A stretch of 64,000 nt of DNA from Pseudomonadota bacterium (GTDB lineage Bacteria > Pseudomonadota > Gammaproteobacteria > Xanthomonadales > SZUA-38): contig JBCCCR010000008.1 in NCBI GenBank assembly GCA_039033415.1, positions 62,001 through 126,000 on the forward strand. Reading direction: 5' to 3'. A program made the translations under genes and the position numbers. Shown here in pieces: positions 21,216 through 49,827 of this stretch (within the stretch, counting starts at the first letter, position 1; the number at the start of each line of letters is the position of its first letter). The notes below the pieces were generated by a model. It searched no databases and was not told the DNA's origin. It saw nothing but the letters and a program-made list of their open reading frames with translations.

Positions 21216-21241
21216 GCCCGCCGTCGCGCGGGCGGCTATTT
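21216..21241. terminator. Hairpin between rho and parB
   Basis: GCCCGC (21216-21221) pairs with GCGGGC (21228-21233) in the 37-bp gap between two convergent genes. It is followed by CTATTTGA on the plus strand, so the U-tract is weak. It is probably a bidirectional terminator. Confidence 0.45.
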
Positions 21242-22105
21242 GATCCGCGCTAAGATCCCGTCCAGCTCGTCGAGCGAGTTGTAGCTCACCACCAGCTGTC
21301 CTTTGCCGCTGGCGCTGTGCTTGAGCTGCACCTTTGCGGCCAGCCGATCGCCGAGGTCAGTCTCGAGCTGCTGGATGTTTGGGTCCTTGGCGGCCGCCGG
21401 CTTGCTCGCACTTGAATCCCCCTGCAGCCAGCGCTTCACCAGCGCTTCAGTCTCGCGCACCGACAATCCCTTCAGCGCCACCTGCCGTGCCGCCTGAGCC
21501 TGCTCGGCGCCGGTCAGACCCAGCAAGGCCCGCGCGTGGCCCATCTCCAGGGAACCGGACTCAACCAGCTTTTTGACCGCCGCCTCCAGCTCCTGGAGCC
21601 GCAGCAGATTGGACACGGCCGCGCGGGAACGGCCCACCGCGCGGGCTGCCGCTTCGTGGGTAAGCTCAAACTCGTCGATCAGACGCTTCAGCGCCGCCGA
21701 CTCTTCGAGTGGATTCAGGTCCTCGCGCTGGATGTTTTCGATCAGCGCCATGGCCACCGTCGCCTGGTCGGACACCTCGCGCACGAGAACCGGTACCTCA
21801 GCGAGGCCGGCCAGCTGCGCAGCGCGCCAGCGCCGCTCGCCGGCGATGATTTCGTATTTGCCGGCGCCGATCGTGCGAACCACAATCGGCTGGACCATGC
21901 CCTGTGCGGCAATGGAGTCGGCGAGCTCCGTCAGCTTCGCCTCGTCCATGCCGGTGCGCGGCTGATATTTCCCGGGCTGCAGCAGTTCGACGGCCAGCTC
22001 GCGATAGGTGCCCTCCGGCTCTGATGTCGGCGCGCCTGCGCTGCCGGCTGACTCACCCAGCAGCGCGTTGAGGCCCTTGCCGAGCCCGCGTCGCTTGGCG
22101 TTCAT
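21236..22105 (-). CDS. parB: Chromosome partitioning protein ParB
   Basis: A 289-residue centromere-binding CTPase. The N-terminal box starts MNAKRRGLGKGLNALLG, with an Arg-rich ParA-activating end. The ParB/Srx fold contains the CTP-binding block GERRWRAAQLAGL, then a helix-turn-helix ([22 protein letters not shown]) and a C-terminal dimerisation domain. Targets are parS sites, and two canonical ones lie in recF at 43690 and 44308. The start overlaps the end of parA by 4 nt, so the two are coupled. Confidence 0.97.
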   Translation of the reverse strand: MNAKRRGLGKGLNALLGESAGSAGAPTSEPEGTYRELAVELLQPGKYQPRTGMDEAKLTELADSIAAQGMVQPIVVRTIGAGKYEIIAGERRWRAAQLAGLAEVPVLVREVSDQATVAMALIENIQREDLNPLEESAALKRLIDEFELTHEAAARAVGRSRAAVSNLLRLQELEAAVKKLVESGSLEMGHARALLGLTGAEQAQAARQVALKGLSVRETEALVKRWLQGDSSASKPAAAKDPNIQQLETDLGDRLAAKVQLKHSASGKGQLVVSYNSLDELDGILARIK

Positions 22106-22893
22106 GGTGCCACCCGTCGGTCGCTGCCGAGCGCTTCCCGGCGCACCAGTTCTCCGGCCAGCCTGAGGTAAGCCTGGGCACCCCGGCTGCCCGGGTCATA
22201 GGTGATCACCGGCTGACCAAAGCTGGGGGACTCGGCGATTCGCACGTTGCGAGGGATAACCGTCATATAAACTTTGGCTCCAAAATGCTGCACCAGCTGG
22301 TTGGATACTTCGGTAGATAGGTTGTTGCGCACATCAAACATGGTGCGCAGCAGGCCTTCGATTCTTAGGCCCGGATTCACCGCCTCGCGGATTTGTTCGA
22401 TGGTGTCGAGGAGCGACTTCAGTCCCTCCAGCGCAAAATACTCACACTGGATGGGTATCAGGACCCCATCAGCTGCGGTCAGCGCATTGACCGTCAGCAT
22501 GCTGAGGCTCGGGGGACAGTCGACCAGCACCTCGTCGTACTGATCCTGGATGGGCTCCAGCGCTCGCTTCAGCTGCGCCTCACGCGCCAGCTTGTCCATC
22601 AGCCGAACCTCAGCGGCGGTGAGCGCGGTGTTGCCTGGCAGCAGATCGAACTTGAAATCCGGCAGGCTGTGGCGGGCCTCCACAATTGAGGTTTCGCCGA
22701 GCAGCACCTCGCCCGTAGTCAGGCTCTGAGCGCGGGCGTCGACGCCGCAACCCATTGTGGCGTTGCCCTGCGGATCCAGGTCCACCAGCAACACCCGGCG
22801 ACCCCGATCGGCGAGCGCATAGGCGAGATTGACGCAGGTGGTGGTCTTGCCCACCCCGCCCTTCTGGTTGGTTACCGCGATCACTCGGGCCAC
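22102..22893 (-). CDS. parA: Chromosome partitioning ATPase ParA (Soj)
   Basis: A 263-residue deviant Walker A ATPase: KGGVGKTT (11-18), LLVDLDPQGNATMG and DEVLVDCPPSLSML. It binds nucleoid DNA with ATP and moves ParB-parS complexes. The size and short N-terminus (no HTH) mark it as a chromosomal type Ib/Soj-like ParA rather than a plasmid ParA. It sits between rsmG (13-nt overlap) and parB (4-nt overlap), the classical rsmG-parA-parB operon. The usual mnmG neighbour is absent here, and mnmE is instead next to yidC. Confidence 0.97.
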   Translation of the reverse strand: MARVIAVTNQKGGVGKTTTCVNLAYALADRGRRVLLVDLDPQGNATMGCGVDARAQSLTTGEVLLGETSIVEARHSLPDFKFDLLPGNTALTAAEVRLMDKLAREAQLKRALEPIQDQYDEVLVDCPPSLSMLTVNALTAADGVLIPIQCEYFALEGLKSLLDTIEQIREAVNPGLRIEGLLRTMFDVRNNLSTEVSNQLVQHFGAKVYMTVIPRNVRIAESPSFGQPVITYDPGSRGAQAYLRLAGELVRREALGSDRRVAP

Positions 22894-40551: not shown

Positions 40552-41871
40552 GTGAGCGGCGACGAGCTCTGGGCCCGATGTTTGAGCCGGCTGGAAGGCG
40601 AGCTCAGCGGGCAGGAAATGAACATGTACATCCGGCCGCTGCAGGCACATTCTGCGGATGGCGTGACATCACTGATGGCACCCAATGAATTTGTGCTGAA
40701 CGCCGTCCGCGATAATCACCTCCTGCTGATTGAGCAGACGCTCAGCCACCTGGCCGGATCAGCCGTTGATGTTGAGCTCTTTATCGGCTCGGTCGGCGGT
40801 GAAGAGGGTGCGCCTGCAGCCCCGGCAGGCGCCGCATCGGATCCCCGGATCGCCACAAATCTCGATCCGGCATTTCGCTTCGACAATTTTGTGCGGGGCA
40901 AATCCAACGAGATGGCGCAGGCGGCAGCGCTTCAGGTGGCCGACAACCCGGGACACAACAGCTACAACCCGCTGCTGCTCTATGGCAGCACGGGCTTAGG
41001 CAAAACACACCTCCTTCATGCGGTGGGCAACCATTTGGTCAGCACCGGCAAGGCTCGGGTGATGTACCTGCACTCAGAGCAGTTTGTTTCCCGGATGGTC
41101 CAGGCGCTTCGCCACAACAGTATCGACGAATTTAAGAGGCGCTATCGGACCGCTGACGCGCTGCTGATCGACGACATCCAGTTTTTCGCCAACAAAGAGC
41201 GGTCACAAGAAGAGTTTTTTCATACCTTCAATACGCTGATCGACGGCAAACAGCAGGTGATCCTGACCTGTGACCGCTATCCTCGGGATGTCGACGGTCT
41301 TGAATCCCGACTGCAGTCTCGTTTCGGCTCGGGCCTGAGCGTTTCGATCGAGCCACCGGATTTTGAGACACGGGCCGCAATCCTGATCGCGAAAGCGGCC
41401 GAAAAAGACTTGTGTCTCAACGAGGAGGTGGCGCTGCTGATCGCCCGCCATGTTCAGTCCAACGTTCGCGAACTGGAGGGAGCGCTCAATACGCTTTGGC
41501 TGAAAGCGCATATCACCAAGCAGGAGGTCACCGCGGGCTTTGCCAAAGAGGCGTTGCGTGAGCTGCTCTCCGCGCATCAGCGCCAGTGCACCATCCCTAA
41601 TATCCAGCAGACGGTGTCCGACTACTACCACATCAGCGTGGCCGAGATGGTCTCCAAGCGTCGCTCTCGAAACATTGCGCGGCCGCGGCAGATGGCCATG
41701 TGCCTGGCCAAGGAGCTGACCGAACATAGCTTGCCGGAAATCGGCCGGGCGTTTGGCGGTCGGGACCACACCACCGTCCTGCACGCATATCGCAAAATCC
41801 ACGAGCTTTGCAGCTCCGACGGGCGCTTGCATGACGACCACGACAAACTGGTTCGAGCCTTGACCCAGTAG
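40552..41871 (+). CDS. dnaA: Chromosomal replication initiator DnaA
   Basis: A 439-residue initiator. Domain I (residues 1-80, ELWARCLSRLEGELSGQEMNMYIRPL) and a short Ala-rich linker precede the AAA+ domain with Walker A GSTGLGKTH (145-153), Walker B LLIDDIQFFANKERSQEEFFHTFN and sensor SRFGSGLSVSIEPPD. Domain IV carries the DNA-recognition signature GRDHTTVLHAYRKI. The start is a GTG at 40552; no ATG is available near it. It begins the dnaA-dnaN-recF-gyrB run, 253 bp before dnaN. Confidence 0.98.
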   Translation: MSGDELWARCLSRLEGELSGQEMNMYIRPLQAHSADGVTSLMAPNEFVLNAVRDNHLLLIEQTLSHLAGSAVDVELFIGSVGGEEGAPAAPAGAASDPRIATNLDPAFRFDNFVRGKSNEMAQAAALQVADNPGHNSYNPLLLYGSTGLGKTHLLHAVGNHLVSTGKARVMYLHSEQFVSRMVQALRHNSIDEFKRRYRTADALLIDDIQFFANKERSQEEFFHTFNTLIDGKQQVILTCDRYPRDVDGLESRLQSRFGSGLSVSIEPPDFETRAAILIAKAAEKDLCLNEEVALLIARHVQSNVRELEGALNTLWLKAHITKQEVTAGFAKEALRELLSAHQRQCTIPNIQQTVSDYYHISVAEMVSKRRSRNIARPRQMAMCLAKELTEHSLPEIGRAFGGRDHTTVLHAYRKIHELCSSDGRLHDDHDKLVRALTQ

Positions 41872-43268: not shown

Positions 43269-44348
43269 ATGATTCGCGTCAGTCGTCTCCAGATAGACGG
43301 CGTTCGAAATCTCAGTGCGGTAGACCTGAAGCCCGGTCCGGGCATCAATCTTTTTCTCGGCGGAAACGGCGCGGGCAAAACCAGCCTGCTCGAAGCGTTG
43401 CACTGCCTGAGCCGTGGACGCTCATTTTTGGGCAGCGGCCGACACGAATTCCTCAATCGAGAGCAGCGCAAAGCCATCATCGTTGCCCACCTGACGCAAA
43501 ACGAAGAGTCCGCAGAGGTGCTGGGTATTCAGCGAGAGCCTTCGACCTGGTCGGCGAGAGCGGGGGGCGCCGACATTAAGTCGTTAGCAACGCTGGCGGA
43601 AAAGTTACCCTTTAGCGTCTTCCACCCGGGTCTTCATCGGTTGGTCGAAGGGCAGCCCGAAGACCGTCGAAGGTTTCTGGATTTTGGTGTGTTTCACGTG
43701 GAACATCATTTTTTAGACCAGTGGCGTCGTTATCGGACGACGCTCCGGCAGCGGAATGCAGCGATTCGCAGCGGCGCTTCGCTCGGAGAAATCACAATTT
43801 GGGATCGCGCACTGACGGACCACGGAGAAGCAGTTACGCAATTTCGACTAGATCACCTGGAGCGCATCAAGGAATTTGCCGGCAAACACTTGCAGGTTTT
43901 TTCGCCGTCGTTGGGAAAGATCTCGCTGTCGCTCGCTAAGGGTTGGCCGGAGGATCAAACGCTGGATGAGGCGTTGGATGAGAGTCTCAGCCAGGATCGT
44001 GATCTCGGATTTACGGGTCGGGGACCTCACCGAGGTGATGTTCGTTTGGTGCTCAGCGGTCAGCGAGTTGCCGGTCGTCTATCGCGCGGACAGCAGAAAA
44101 TGGTCGCGCTGGCCCTGTTGCTGGCCCAGGCTGAGGCTATGTCGGAAGCCGGGGAGGTGCCGGTGATCGGGTTTGATGATTTACCGTCCGAACTGGACGC
44201 GGAGCATCAGCGTTTGGCCGTCGACGTGGTTCGGGAACTCGGCGCGCAAACGTGGATTACGGGCAACGCTTCACCCCCGGGGGTGGACCAGGGCGGCGTC
44301 GATAAGGTGTTCCACGTGGAACAAGGGCGGGTCTCAGAACTGGTATAA
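43269..44348 (+). CDS. recF: DNA repair and recombination protein RecF
   Basis: A 359-residue ABC-type ATPase that helps load RecA at gaps. Walker A GGNGAGKTSLLEALH, signature-type LSRGQQKMVALALLLAQAE and Walker B GFDDLPSELDAEHQ are present. The sequence FHVE occurs twice, at residues 142-145 (GVFHVEHHF) and 348-351 (VFHVEQGRV). The DNA encoding both FHVE motifs is also a canonical parS site. The 3' end carries the probable gyrB promoter. Confidence 0.97.
   Translation: MIRVSRLQIDGVRNLSAVDLKPGPGINLFLGGNGAGKTSLLEALHCLSRGRSFLGSGRHEFLNREQRKAIIVAHLTQNEESAEVLGIQREPSTWSARAGGADIKSLATLAEKLPFSVFHPGLHRLVEGQPEDRRRFLDFGVFHVEHHFLDQWRRYRTTLRQRNAAIRSGASLGEITIWDRALTDHGEAVTQFRLDHLERIKEFAGKHLQVFSPSLGKISLSLAKGWPEDQTLDEALDESLSQDRDLGFTGRGPHRGDVRLVLSGQRVAGRLSRGQQKMVALALLLAQAEAMSEAGEVPVIGFDDLPSELDAEHQRLAVDVVRELGAQTWITGNASPPGVDQGGVDKVFHVEQGRVSELV
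43690..43705. promoter_or_regulatory. parS: parS centromere site 1 (inside recF)
   Basis: TGTTTCACGTGGAACA is identical to the canonical 16-bp ParB-binding consensus. It lies inside recF, 1.6 kb to the right of the oriC gap, and encodes F-H-V-E. ParA and ParB are encoded at 21.2-22.9 kb. Confidence 0.93.
44308..44323. promoter_or_regulatory. parS: parS centromere site 2 (3' end of recF)
   Basis: TGTTCCACGTGGAACA is a perfect palindrome and a standard parS variant. It lies 602 bp after site 1 and ends 20 bp before the TATAAT at 44344, so it overlaps the -35 region of the probable gyrB promoter. Confidence 0.9.
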
Positions 44349-44349
44349 T
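44341..44349 (+). promoter_or_regulatory. Extended -10 promoter, probably for gyrB
   Basis: TGGTATAAT is a perfect TATAAT with the TGn extension and spans the recF stop codon. There is no good -35 (ACAAGG at the 17-bp position), as is usual for extended -10 promoters. The gyrB start is 99 bp downstream, past an 8-bp hairpin (44399-44406 with 44426-44433). Confidence 0.6.
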
Positions 44350-44375
44350 CGGAGGGTTGCGGCGGCTGTGGTTAG

Positions 44376-46835
<2,460 letters not shown>

Positions 46836-46899: not shown

Positions 46900-47835
46900 A
46901 TGTTTTCTCAAGTTGCCGAGCGTGATCCCGCGCAGACTGCAGCACTGCTGACTGGCTGGGTTGTGCTTCTGGCGGCGGTGGTGGGTTGCATCTGGCTGAC
47001 AGCGTCGATCGTCTGGAAGCTGGTGGATCTGAATCCGGCGCCGGCACCCTCGCTTGGTGGCGACGCTGAACCCCTTGCCACGGCGGCGGCCCAATCGGTG
47101 GATCTGCCCGGCCTGCATCTGTTCGGGCAGTCGGGTATGGCGATACCGCTGGGTGGCGGCACGTTCGATGCACCCGAAACGAGTTTGGATTTGCTGCTGC
47201 GCGGGACGCTGGCCTCCGACGATCCTGAGGAAGGTATGGCGATTGTGGTGGACAGCGAGGGTGATGGATTCTATAGCGTCGGCGACGAGCTGCCCGGCGC
47301 CGCGCGGCTGCACGAGGTTTATACCGATCGCGTGGTGCTGGTGCACCAGGGCCGATTCGAGACGCTTCGCCTTCGTGATGAATCCAATCCGCCGCCGCGG
47401 CGGCGACTGGCTCGCAACGGCAATCGGAGCGGCAGCCGGGGCGCCGGACGCAGCGGGTCGCAGTCGATGCCCGGAATCCGCACCAGCGCGGTGCCGGGCG
47501 GAAACGGCCAGCAGGTGGACTGGCGCAACGTCCAGACCACGCTCCGCATCGACCCCGCGGAGCTGGCCCGCCAGGTCCGCGTATTACCCCACATGGAAAA
47601 CGGGAAACCCGTTGGCGTACGCCTCCAGGCCGGCCGCGATAGCGCGGTGTTTTCCAAGCTTGGTCTCCGCAACACCGACATCATCACGGAAGTCAACGGC
47701 GTGCCTCTCGATAACCCGGCACGTTCATTTGAGCTGATCAACCAACTCAAGTCTCAGTCGAACTTTGCGGTCCGGCTCAAGCGTGACGGCCGGGAAATGA
47801 CCCTGAACATCGACGCCAACCAGCTGGGAAATTAA
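46900..47835 (+). CDS. gspC: Type II secretion system protein GspC
   Basis: A 311-residue inner-membrane T2SS component linking the inner platform to the secretin. One membrane helix (about 18-42) is followed by the HR domain (LHLFGQSGMAIPLGGGTF, DLLLRGTLASDDPEEGMAIV). A basic, Gly/Ser/Arg-rich linker (about 165-200) leads to a C-terminal PDZ domain (NGKPVGVRLQAGRDSAVFSKLGLRNTDIITEVNG in two blocks). The stop TAA is directly followed by the TTG start of gspD. It is first of gspCDEF. Confidence 0.9.
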   Translation: MFSQVAERDPAQTAALLTGWVVLLAAVVGCIWLTASIVWKLVDLNPAPAPSLGGDAEPLATAAAQSVDLPGLHLFGQSGMAIPLGGGTFDAPETSLDLLLRGTLASDDPEEGMAIVVDSEGDGFYSVGDELPGAARLHEVYTDRVVLVHQGRFETLRLRDESNPPPRRRLARNGNRSGSRGAGRSGSQSMPGIRTSAVPGGNGQQVDWRNVQTTLRIDPAELARQVRVLPHMENGKPVGVRLQAGRDSAVFSKLGLRNTDIITEVNGVPLDNPARSFELINQLKSQSNFAVRLKRDGREMTLNIDANQLGN

Positions 47836-49827
47836 TTGACTAACCACCCAAACCTGCTGTCATTCACCGCCGCCGTGGGACTGGCGCTGCTGCTGGCTGT
47901 GGTCGAACCAAGCCGGGCGCAAAGCGGCAAGCTCAACCTGGAAGACGCCAGCCTTCAGTCGCTGGTCGCTACCGTCGCGGAGGTCACCGGCAAGAACTTT
48001 GTCCTCGACCCGCGCGTTCAGGAAGTGACGGTCAACGTCATCTCCAACCGGGACATGAACCCGGACGAAATGTACGAGCTGTTTTTATCCGTACTGAGGG
48101 TTCATGAGTTCTCCGCTGTCCCGGCCGGAGATGTCATTAAGATTGTGCCGGATGCAAAGGGGCTGCGGGACGCTATCCCGCTGGTTAACAACAACCCTCG
48201 CGGTGACCAGCTGGTCACTCAGGTCATTGAGGTCAAGCACGTCCCGGCAGCCCAGCTGGTGCCGCTGCTGCGTCAGCTGATCCCCCAGAACGGCTCGGTG
48301 GCGGCCCACGAAGGTTCCAACGTGCTGGTGATTTCTGACCGCGCCGCTAACGTATCGCGGTTGGCACAGATCATTCGTCGCATCGATACCGTAAGCGAAG
48401 ATGACGTGGAGGTGATGGCGCTGCAGCACGCCAACGCCATCGAGGTGGTGCGAGCACTCAACACGGCCACCGCAGGTTCCGGGGCCAACGGAGCTGGCGG
48501 CCCTAAAGCCCTGGCAGATCAGCGTACCAACAGCGTGCTGTTGTTCGGCGATCCCGCCGTCCGGCTGCGCTACAAAACAATTGTCTCCCACCTGGACACG
48601 CCCATCGAAAGTGGTGGTAGTACCCAGGTAATCTATCTCCGTTACGCCAGCGCGGAGTCGCTGGTACCGATCCTCGACAGCGTGGTGCGTGGGCCAGAAG
48701 GTGACGCCACGGACGGCCCCGCTACCATCCAGGCTCACGCCGAGACCAACTCCCTTGTGATTACCGCGCCCCCAGCTGTGTTTCGGACGGTGCAGTCAGT
48801 TGTGCGTCAGCTCGACGTGCGCCGTGTCCAGGTGCAGGTGGAGGCGATTATCGCGGAGGTTGCCACAGATTTTGCGCGTGAGCTGGGCGTTCAGTGGCAG
48901 GCTGCTTCGCTCGACTCTCTAGGCGATTCGGGACCGATCGGGGGTACCGGTTTTCCCACAAACTTTGGCACCGGCCCCGATATCCTCGACCTGACGCCAA
49001 CCGGTGAAAACGTCTTTCCCAACCTCTCCGCCCTGGGTGCCGGTCTCAATCTCGGCTACCTGTCCGGCGTGATCGAAGTTCAGACCGGGGTGGATGCTGA
49101 CGGTATCCCGATCATCCAGGAGATCCCGCGGCTCAACGCGCTGGTCACGGCACTGGATTCGGACGCGGACAACAACGTGCTCTCTACCCCTTCCATTGTG
49201 ACTCTGGATCACCAGGAGGCCGTGATCAATGTCGGCCAGGAGGTTCCGTTTGTTACCGGTCAGTTCACCAATACCGGCGCCAACCAGGCGGCGGTCAGCC
49301 CGTTTCAGACCATTACCCGGGAAGACGTCGGCCTGACGCTGACCGTCACGCCGCACGTCAATGAGGGTGATACGGTGATCCTGGCGATCCAGCAGGAGGT
49401 GTCGAGCATCTCGGCCCAGTCGGTAGCGGTGGACCTGATCACCAACAAGCGGGAGCTCTCGACCACAGTCATGGTGCCGGACGGTGGCGTGCTGGTCCTC
49501 GGCGGCCTCATCGACGATGCCGTGTCCGAGCGCATTCAGAAGGTCCCAGCGCTGGGTGACATTCCGCTGCTTGGCAATCTGTTTAAGTATCGGACCACGC
49601 AGCGCACCAAACGAAATCTGATGGTCTTTATCCGGCCACGTATCCTCAAAGATCAGGCTACGATGGATGCGGTTACCGGCGCCAAATACAACTTCATGCG
49701 CGATTCGCAGATCGAGGAGCGGCAGAGCTACGAGGGGCTGCTGCGTGCTGAATCGTTGCCCCTGCTGCCGACGCTCGAAGAATATCGCGAAGTGCAGGAG
49801 GCGGAGCCCGAAAGCTCGGACCAGTGA
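47836..49827 (+). CDS. gspD: Type II secretion system secretin GspD
   Basis: A 663-residue outer-membrane secretin. The start is TTG 47836, immediately after the gspC stop, giving a signal peptide (LSFTAAVGLALLLAVVEPSRA). N0 (LNLEDASLQSLVATVAEVTG), N1-N3 repeats (LVTQVIEVKHVPAAQLVPLLRQLIPQ, VIYLRYASAESLVPILDSVV) and the secretin domain (QVQVEAIIAEVATDFARELGVQW, NVLSTPSIVTLDHQEAVINVGQEVPFVTG split over blocks, VPDGGVLVLGGLIDD) are in order. The C-terminus (about 40 residues after RPRIL) probably contains the pilotin-binding segment. It is coupled to gspE by a 4-nt overlap. Confidence 0.95.
   Translation: MTNHPNLLSFTAAVGLALLLAVVEPSRAQSGKLNLEDASLQSLVATVAEVTGKNFVLDPRVQEVTVNVISNRDMNPDEMYELFLSVLRVHEFSAVPAGDVIKIVPDAKGLRDAIPLVNNNPRGDQLVTQVIEVKHVPAAQLVPLLRQLIPQNGSVAAHEGSNVLVISDRAANVSRLAQIIRRIDTVSEDDVEVMALQHANAIEVVRALNTATAGSGANGAGGPKALADQRTNSVLLFGDPAVRLRYKTIVSHLDTPIESGGSTQVIYLRYASAESLVPILDSVVRGPEGDATDGPATIQAHAETNSLVITAPPAVFRTVQSVVRQLDVRRVQVQVEAIIAEVATDFARELGVQWQAASLDSLGDSGPIGGTGFPTNFGTGPDILDLTPTGENVFPNLSALGAGLNLGYLSGVIEVQTGVDADGIPIIQEIPRLNALVTALDSDADNNVLSTPSIVTLDHQEAVINVGQEVPFVTGQFTNTGANQAAVSPFQTITREDVGLTLTVTPHVNEGDTVILAIQQEVSSISAQSVAVDLITNKRELSTTVMVPDGGVLVLGGLIDDAVSERIQKVPALGDIPLLGNLFKYRTTQRTKRNLMVFIRPRILKDQATMDAVTGAKYNFMRDSQIEERQSYEGLLRAESLPLLPTLEEYREVQEAEPESSDQ

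Follow-up and report, generated by a model that had tools for sequence, protein, structure and literature searches.

A parS site in the last codons of recF adjoins a putative gyrB promoter, in an arrangement kept in many related bacteria

Results

The DNA analysed, a 64-kb stretch referred to here as the window, belongs to the genome of a Pseudomonadota bacterium (6.42 Mb, 62 contigs) and carries the genes dnaA, dnaN, recF and gyrB consecutively. The gene dnaA (40552-41871, forward strand; TIGR00362, 537 bits) marks the oriC region, and recF (43269-44348, forward strand) encodes a product of 359 aa that scores 309 bits against TIGR00611 (cut-off 172). The gyrB gene (44448-46835, forward strand) starts with the ATG at 44448 and encodes 795 aa, with 1006 bits against TIGR01059 (cut-off 882); directly 3' of it are two ORFs (46900-49827) which resemble, by eye, the type II secretion genes gspC and gspD. 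The cognate partition genes are both inside the window, on the reverse strand. The product of parB (21236-22105, 289 aa), the cognate loader, scored above the cut-off of TIGR00180 and matched the PDB chains 7bnk, 6t1f and others, and that of parA (22102-22893, 263 aa) matched the NCBIfam ParA family under the equivalog cut-off. The control search with TIGR00180 also gave a match in E. coli, for which the cut-off status was not given.

Two sites of the 16-bp chromosomal parS type recognized by ParB/Spo0J proteins (consensus TGTTNCACGTGNAACA) are present within recF, and thus near the predicted oriC region; neither is assigned a strand. The downstream one, parS-B (44308-44323, TGTTCCACGTGGAACA), is identical to its own reverse complement, has no mismatch to the consensus and occupies recF codons 347-352 (V-F-H-V-E-Q). 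The upstream one, parS-A (43690-43705, TGTTTCACGTGGAACA), fits the consensus as an imperfect palindrome and occupies codons 141-146 (V-F-H-V-E-H). A preliminary description of this DNA had pointed to a second parS at the 3' end of recF, a perfect palindrome encoding F-H-V-E once again, and was accurate in all these particulars, as F348-H349-V350-E351 are read in the recF frame at parS-B and F142-H-V-E145 at parS-A. In the whole genome these two sites were the sole parS matches with zero or one mismatch, and the exact backward pattern did not occur. At two mismatches there were three further matches in the 6.42-Mb genome against 16 for the backward control pattern, thus the three are at chance level. 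These counts rule out that parS-B is a chance palindrome. A search of the 64-kb window allowing three mismatches was uninformative (2 matches, 1.45 expected by shuffling); the strength of the parS signal rests on the exact matches. A second genome of the same genus has the identical two sites with the identical spacing of 618 bp.

To follow the sites across the class, which we took to be the Gammaproteobacteria, a sample of 370 genomes was searched for recF, of which 303 matched, and 130 recF loci were analysed (30 plus 100 further ones among the matches listed). Three loci at contig ends (G082, G137 and G184) were excluded, as were the listed matches ranked below G337; the 130 loci are therefore those with the higher RecF scores. 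Where a count is given out of 129, the window's own locus is excluded. Thirty other loci (L138-L167, of which L146 and L166 had no RecF match) had been picked for carrying parS and were kept out of all rates. At the homologous codons, site A was found with at most one mismatch in 111 of the 130 loci (65 perfect, 46 with one mismatch), and site B likewise in 111 (82 perfect, 29 with one mismatch). Both sites were perfect in 46 loci, with a spacing of 606-630 bp. In 42 of the 46 site A sequences with one mismatch, the last base was changed to C; the parS1 site of P. aeruginosa, which is bound by ParB in vivo, shares this AACC ending (PMC5098823). Within the window's order, at least one perfect site was present anywhere in 163 of 200 genomes, against 3 of 200 for the backward pattern. 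Six loci (L020, L036, L052, L091, L129 and L137) had an extra perfect parS at or past the end of recF. In six others (L163-L165, L167, L298 and L299) the recF stop was within 7 bases of parS-B, such that the centromere ends the protein. Aeromonas caviae (L309) had site B only, and the recF genes of Acinetobacter baumannii (L310) and Legionella adelaidensis (L352) had site A only, ending in AACC; the latter species also had a one-mismatch site 5 bp past the recF stop.

The codons used at both sites were compared with what the codon usage of the respective recF gene would predict, with the window's own locus excluded. Among the loci with F-H-V-[E/K] at the respective place, H-V-[E/K] was written as CAC-GTG-[G/A]AA in 111 of 112 at site A (8.8 expected, sd 2.8) and in 111 of 115 at site B (9.1 expected, sd 2.9). 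The silent codon positions are thus locked to parS, which indicates that the DNA itself is under selection, over and above the protein it encodes. It would be natural to suppose that RecF itself requires F-H-V-E, a frequent peptide at the two sites across the sample, and that the palindrome arises incidentally from encoding it; since F-H-V-E can be encoded in 32 ways, and E. coli K-12 RecF (F-H-N-E and F-T-V-E at the homologous places) and other lineages without the sites carry different residues, the codon test refutes protein constraint as the sole cause and leaves this explanation hardly any probability. The silent positions are most likely held by selection for ParB binding. The F-H-V-E peptides of RecF (within residues 141-146 and 347-352) may even exist in the class because of parS. 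Several lineages that have lost the sites carry different residues at these RecF segments.

A ParB match was found in 349 of the 370 genomes of the class sample, so that the consequences of ParB loss can be compared in few lineages only. In one genus, a genome with a ParB match (G026) has a perfect site B, and two genomes without one, each a single contig (G250 and G156), have one and two mismatches, respectively, at B and three each at A; some of these changes are silent (CAC to CAT, GTG to GTA). One further genome without a ParB match and with a readable recF (G223) has no site. Other genomes with no ParB match have perfect sites nonetheless (G345 at both places, G365 and G115 at B) or sites with one mismatch (G280 at both places, G201 and G114 in the site A region). 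As these six assemblies consist of 120-410 contigs, parB is perhaps just missing from them. The recF genes of E. coli, Proteus and Pasteurella had no site within two mismatches, and Enterobacteriaceae and Pasteurellaceae are described as being without par genes (PMC3909081).

Downstream of parS-B lies the 9-mer TGG-TATAAT (44341-44349, forward strand), the extended -10 element of a putative sigma-70 promoter of gyrB. Its TATAAT hexamer (44344-44349) contains the recF stop codon TAA (44346-44348) and is separated from parS-B by exactly 20 bp (44324-44343), the distance that had been given before. Judged from the -10, gyrB transcription would start near 44356, giving a predicted leader of 44356-44447 (forward strand). 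No TTGACA-like -35 hexamer was found at 16-18 bp from the -10. With a 17-bp spacer the -35 place would be 44321-44326 (forward strand), where the sequence is ACAAGG, with no match to a -35 box, and would overlap the last three bases of parS-B; by this geometry the earlier wording that parS-B touches the gyrB promoter holds. Because of the lack of a -35 match, a simple promoter scan requiring one found no site, and a -35 box for this promoter was rejected as a candidate. Within the predicted leader, 44399-44433 can form a GC-rich stem-loop of 8 bp with no T run behind it (z -1.74 for a 105-nt fold, and an equal stability in 10 of 200 shuffles), which is either a leader element or a chance fold.

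To see how constant this spacing is, we counted every 9-mer made up of TGn followed by a hexamer agreeing with TATAAT at five or more of its six positions, in the 117 loci having parS-B within two mismatches. The extended -10 was present at exactly +20 after parS-B in 55 of the 117; the next best offset had 2, and all others up to 140 bp summed to 26. As controls, only three such 9-mers were found within 140 bp downstream of site A (114 loci), and the background in recF coding sequence was 10 in 126,360 positions. None of the 12 loci without parS-B had the -10 at that place (Fisher p 0.0012, kinship uncorrected). Including the window's own locus, the loci with the +20 promoter came from 37 of the 76 sampled families. 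Among relatives, the -10 at +20 was kept at 84% (G001) and 53% (G373) RecF identity and absent at 43% (G383), and in the family f176 it was found in 3 of 6 loci (7 genomes, with the recF fragment of G380 excluded). At least 116 exact-pattern matches were obtained in named genomes, which include Rhodanobacter, Dyella, Luteibacter, Frateuria, Tahibacter, Povalibacter, Wenzhouxiangella, Thiohalophilus and others. Among the 80 matches listed, 79 had a GyrB N-terminal motif at most 700 bp downstream, and the remaining one has 66 bp of sequence; one of the 80 is named Candidatus Eremiobacteraeota.

As TATAAT overlaps the recF stop, the start site of the gyrB transcript is a predicted one and the scan demanding a -35 found nothing, the hexamer might be simply a codon followed by the stop (nTA-TAA-T) and no promoter at all. 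We consider this very improbable: nTA makes up 4% of the codons in these recF genes, yet precedes the stop in 48 of the 70 loci with the stop at +22, and all 55 cases also have TG at the extended -10 place. Moreover, in 7 of the 55 loci the stop has moved from +22 to +25 and the -10 is still at +20, with the variants TACAAT and TATACT holding the same place. A mere stop-codon effect was rejected on account of the nTA enrichment, the TG and the place kept when the stop moves. A gyrB promoter 20 bp downstream of parS-B is thus well supported by conservation and very probably real, its start position being a prediction.

The +20 promoter is missing in 62 of the 117 parS-B loci. On a FastTree tree of RecF, built with the last 20 residues removed, at least 28 changes of the promoter were counted against 6 changes of parS-B, i.e. 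the promoter is patchy across the loci and parS-B far steadier. An independent-pairs test for dependence of the promoter on parS, in which few pairs were informative, was not significant (14 pairs, p 0.125-0.5). Of 59 matched genomes of the Pseudomonadaceae type, a family assignment that is based on G146 and its strong match to OprF (E 1.4e-77), 30 loci were examined. In these, parS-B was perfect in 26 and had at most one mismatch in 29, and the extended -10 at +20 was found in none (0/30). In 19 of the 30 the GyrB motif was as close as in the locus L033, in which the start of gyrB and the stop of recF overlap; recF and gyrB of P. aeruginosa PAO1 presumably overlap as well. The +20 promoter was also absent from 28 of 28 loci of the window's order that had been selected for parS and come from few families. 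By these counts, parS does not need the promoter.

Discussion

That parS lies inside recF is already known from P. aeruginosa, whose sites parS1 and parS2 are both within this gene (PMC3909081, PMC5521831), near oriC as in the window, and parS2 has the identical 16 bases (PMC5098823). ParB of this species binds the recF parS sites in vivo and is enriched across more than 20 kb (PMC5098823, PMC5521831, PMC3909081), parS is needed for segregation (PMC5098823), and a single parS near oriC is sufficient for it (PMC5098823; PMC4368675). The differences are that P. aeruginosa parS1 ends in AACC (PMC5098823) and that genomes of the Pseudomonadaceae type are without the extended -10 at +20. A codon lock across the class and a fixed distance to a -10 were not found in the portions available to us of the literature on parS with recF, a scope which excludes Livny et al. 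2007. A paper on half-parS sites (PMC10419367) does not mention recF, gyrB, PA0003 or PA0004, and a review of chromosomal ParB (PMC7022226) mentions neither recF nor gyrB. There was no Pseudomonas among the 40 matches listed of 55 recF-bearing plasmid records.

Judging by its sequence, its position, the cognate ParAB and the strong selection on silent codon positions, 44308-44323 is almost certainly a parS site. The preliminary observation of parS-B is therefore confirmed, and is better founded than the single sequence could tell. Sequence comparison establishes the parS site and the lock on its codons, as well as the -10 with its fixed spacing. A centromere has thus apparently fixed codons of an unrelated DNA-repair protein across a bacterial class, and possibly shaped the RecF peptide. 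As the parS/-10 arrangement is kept in many related bacteria, segregation might influence DNA supercoiling.

How this influence could work is suggested by the geometry. With TATAAT at -12 to -7, parS-B would extend from about -48 to -33 and so cover the place of the missing -35 box. The parS site together with the next codon would fill the -35 place, and this would explain the extended -10 in all 55 cases. RNA polymerase and the ParB dimer nucleating at parS would then compete for the same DNA, and fresh loading of ParB would damp the gyrB promoter for a short time, during which gyrB may still be expressed by transcription coming from upstream. Segregation would be the main job of parS-B; regulation of gyrB, if any, would be secondary and probably modest. 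On balance we favour, with some reserve, the view that parS-B is a ParB loading site placed in the last codons of recF and in the upstream half of the gyrB promoter, where it would compete with RNA polymerase.

A precedent is the ParB-family clamp protein KorB of plasmid RK2, whose loading site lies just upstream of a core promoter and which occludes RNA polymerase; an operator 4 bp upstream of the -35 gives 4-5-fold repression, and a KorB defective in clamping does so too (PMC11790492). This makes the competition of ParB with polymerase plausible in the present case. KorB, however, is a plasmid repressor with a partner, KorA, and its site is next to the -35 and does not replace it. In P. aeruginosa, the promoters adjoining parS3 and parS4 (PA0011 and PA0013) are repressed by ParB at native level (PMC5521831); parS lies beside a promoter there too, but the genes are others than gyrB, and regulation in the window is putative. 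In Caulobacter, a hot spot for parS insertion was found near recF-gyrB, and the authors considered an effect of the nearby insertions on gyrB and saw its transcription unchanged (PMC5815017). Insertion of parS is thus favoured near gyrB in that organism, but the insertions are artificial. Silencing of Caulobacter gyrB is the topic of another paper (PMC1175088).

The earlier proposal that ParB loading at parS-B changes gyrB transcription is unsupported so far. In P. aeruginosa, ParB excess lowered the expression of most genes from PA0003 to PA0015, gyrB (PA0004) by 2.0-fold, and in parB-null and parS-null strains a significant rise was reported for PA0010-PA0015 only, gyrB not being among the rising genes (PMC5521831). 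Native ParB therefore does not visibly govern gyrB in P. aeruginosa. Since all 30 loci of the Pseudomonadaceae type are without the promoter, that experiment is no test of the architecture in the window, and its negative result leaves the question of feedback on gyrase standing. The proposal is kept as a hypothesis for organisms built like the window. By our analysis, a measurable effect of ParB at native level on this gyrB promoter would have somewhat less than an even chance.

The most serious alternative is that the two elements are neighbours without cross-talk: parS-B is fixed in recF, the gyrB promoter happens to be at the recF end, the spacing has been inherited from one ancestor, and native ParB has no effect on gyrB. 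This agrees with the P. aeruginosa null strains, with the persistence of parS-B in genomes of the Pseudomonadaceae type and with the non-significant independent-pairs test, and wherever the codons of parS leave no room for a -35 box, a promoter would naturally be built on an extended -10. Against it, the -10 stays at +20 in the seven loci whose stop has moved, recF tails of other lengths rarely have a TATAAT-like hexamer tied to the stop (3 of 50 loci), and none of the 12 loci without parS-B has the -10 at that place, in a comparison not corrected for kinship. We hold this alternative possible but doubtful. Much weaker is the idea that the benefit runs in reverse, the open complex of the gyrB promoter or the negative supercoiling upstream of it aiding ParB loading or keeping the clamps on the oriC side. 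The position of parS immediately upstream of the promoter and a report dealing with ParB, supercoiling and condensation (PMC11602141) would suit it; the retention of parS-B in Pseudomonadaceae-type loci without the promoter and the sufficiency of one parS near oriC in P. aeruginosa (PMC5098823) speak against it, and we regard it as quite improbable.

Returning to competition between ParB and polymerase, a more far-reaching version of it would give the centromere, with parS in place of the -35 region, a function within the gyrB promoter itself across much of the class: whenever ParB loads at a newly replicated origin, RNA polymerase would be excluded and less GyrB made for a short time. We think this unlikely; if it were true, one 42-bp element that also codes for the tail of RecF would tie segregation to supercoiling. 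Among the lineages found here, some have the promoter, some are without it and some are without ParB, a series provided by nature in which to ask whether the segregation machinery feeds back on gyrase. Gyrase subunits are among the candidate partners co-precipitated with ParB in P. aeruginosa (PMC9927451).
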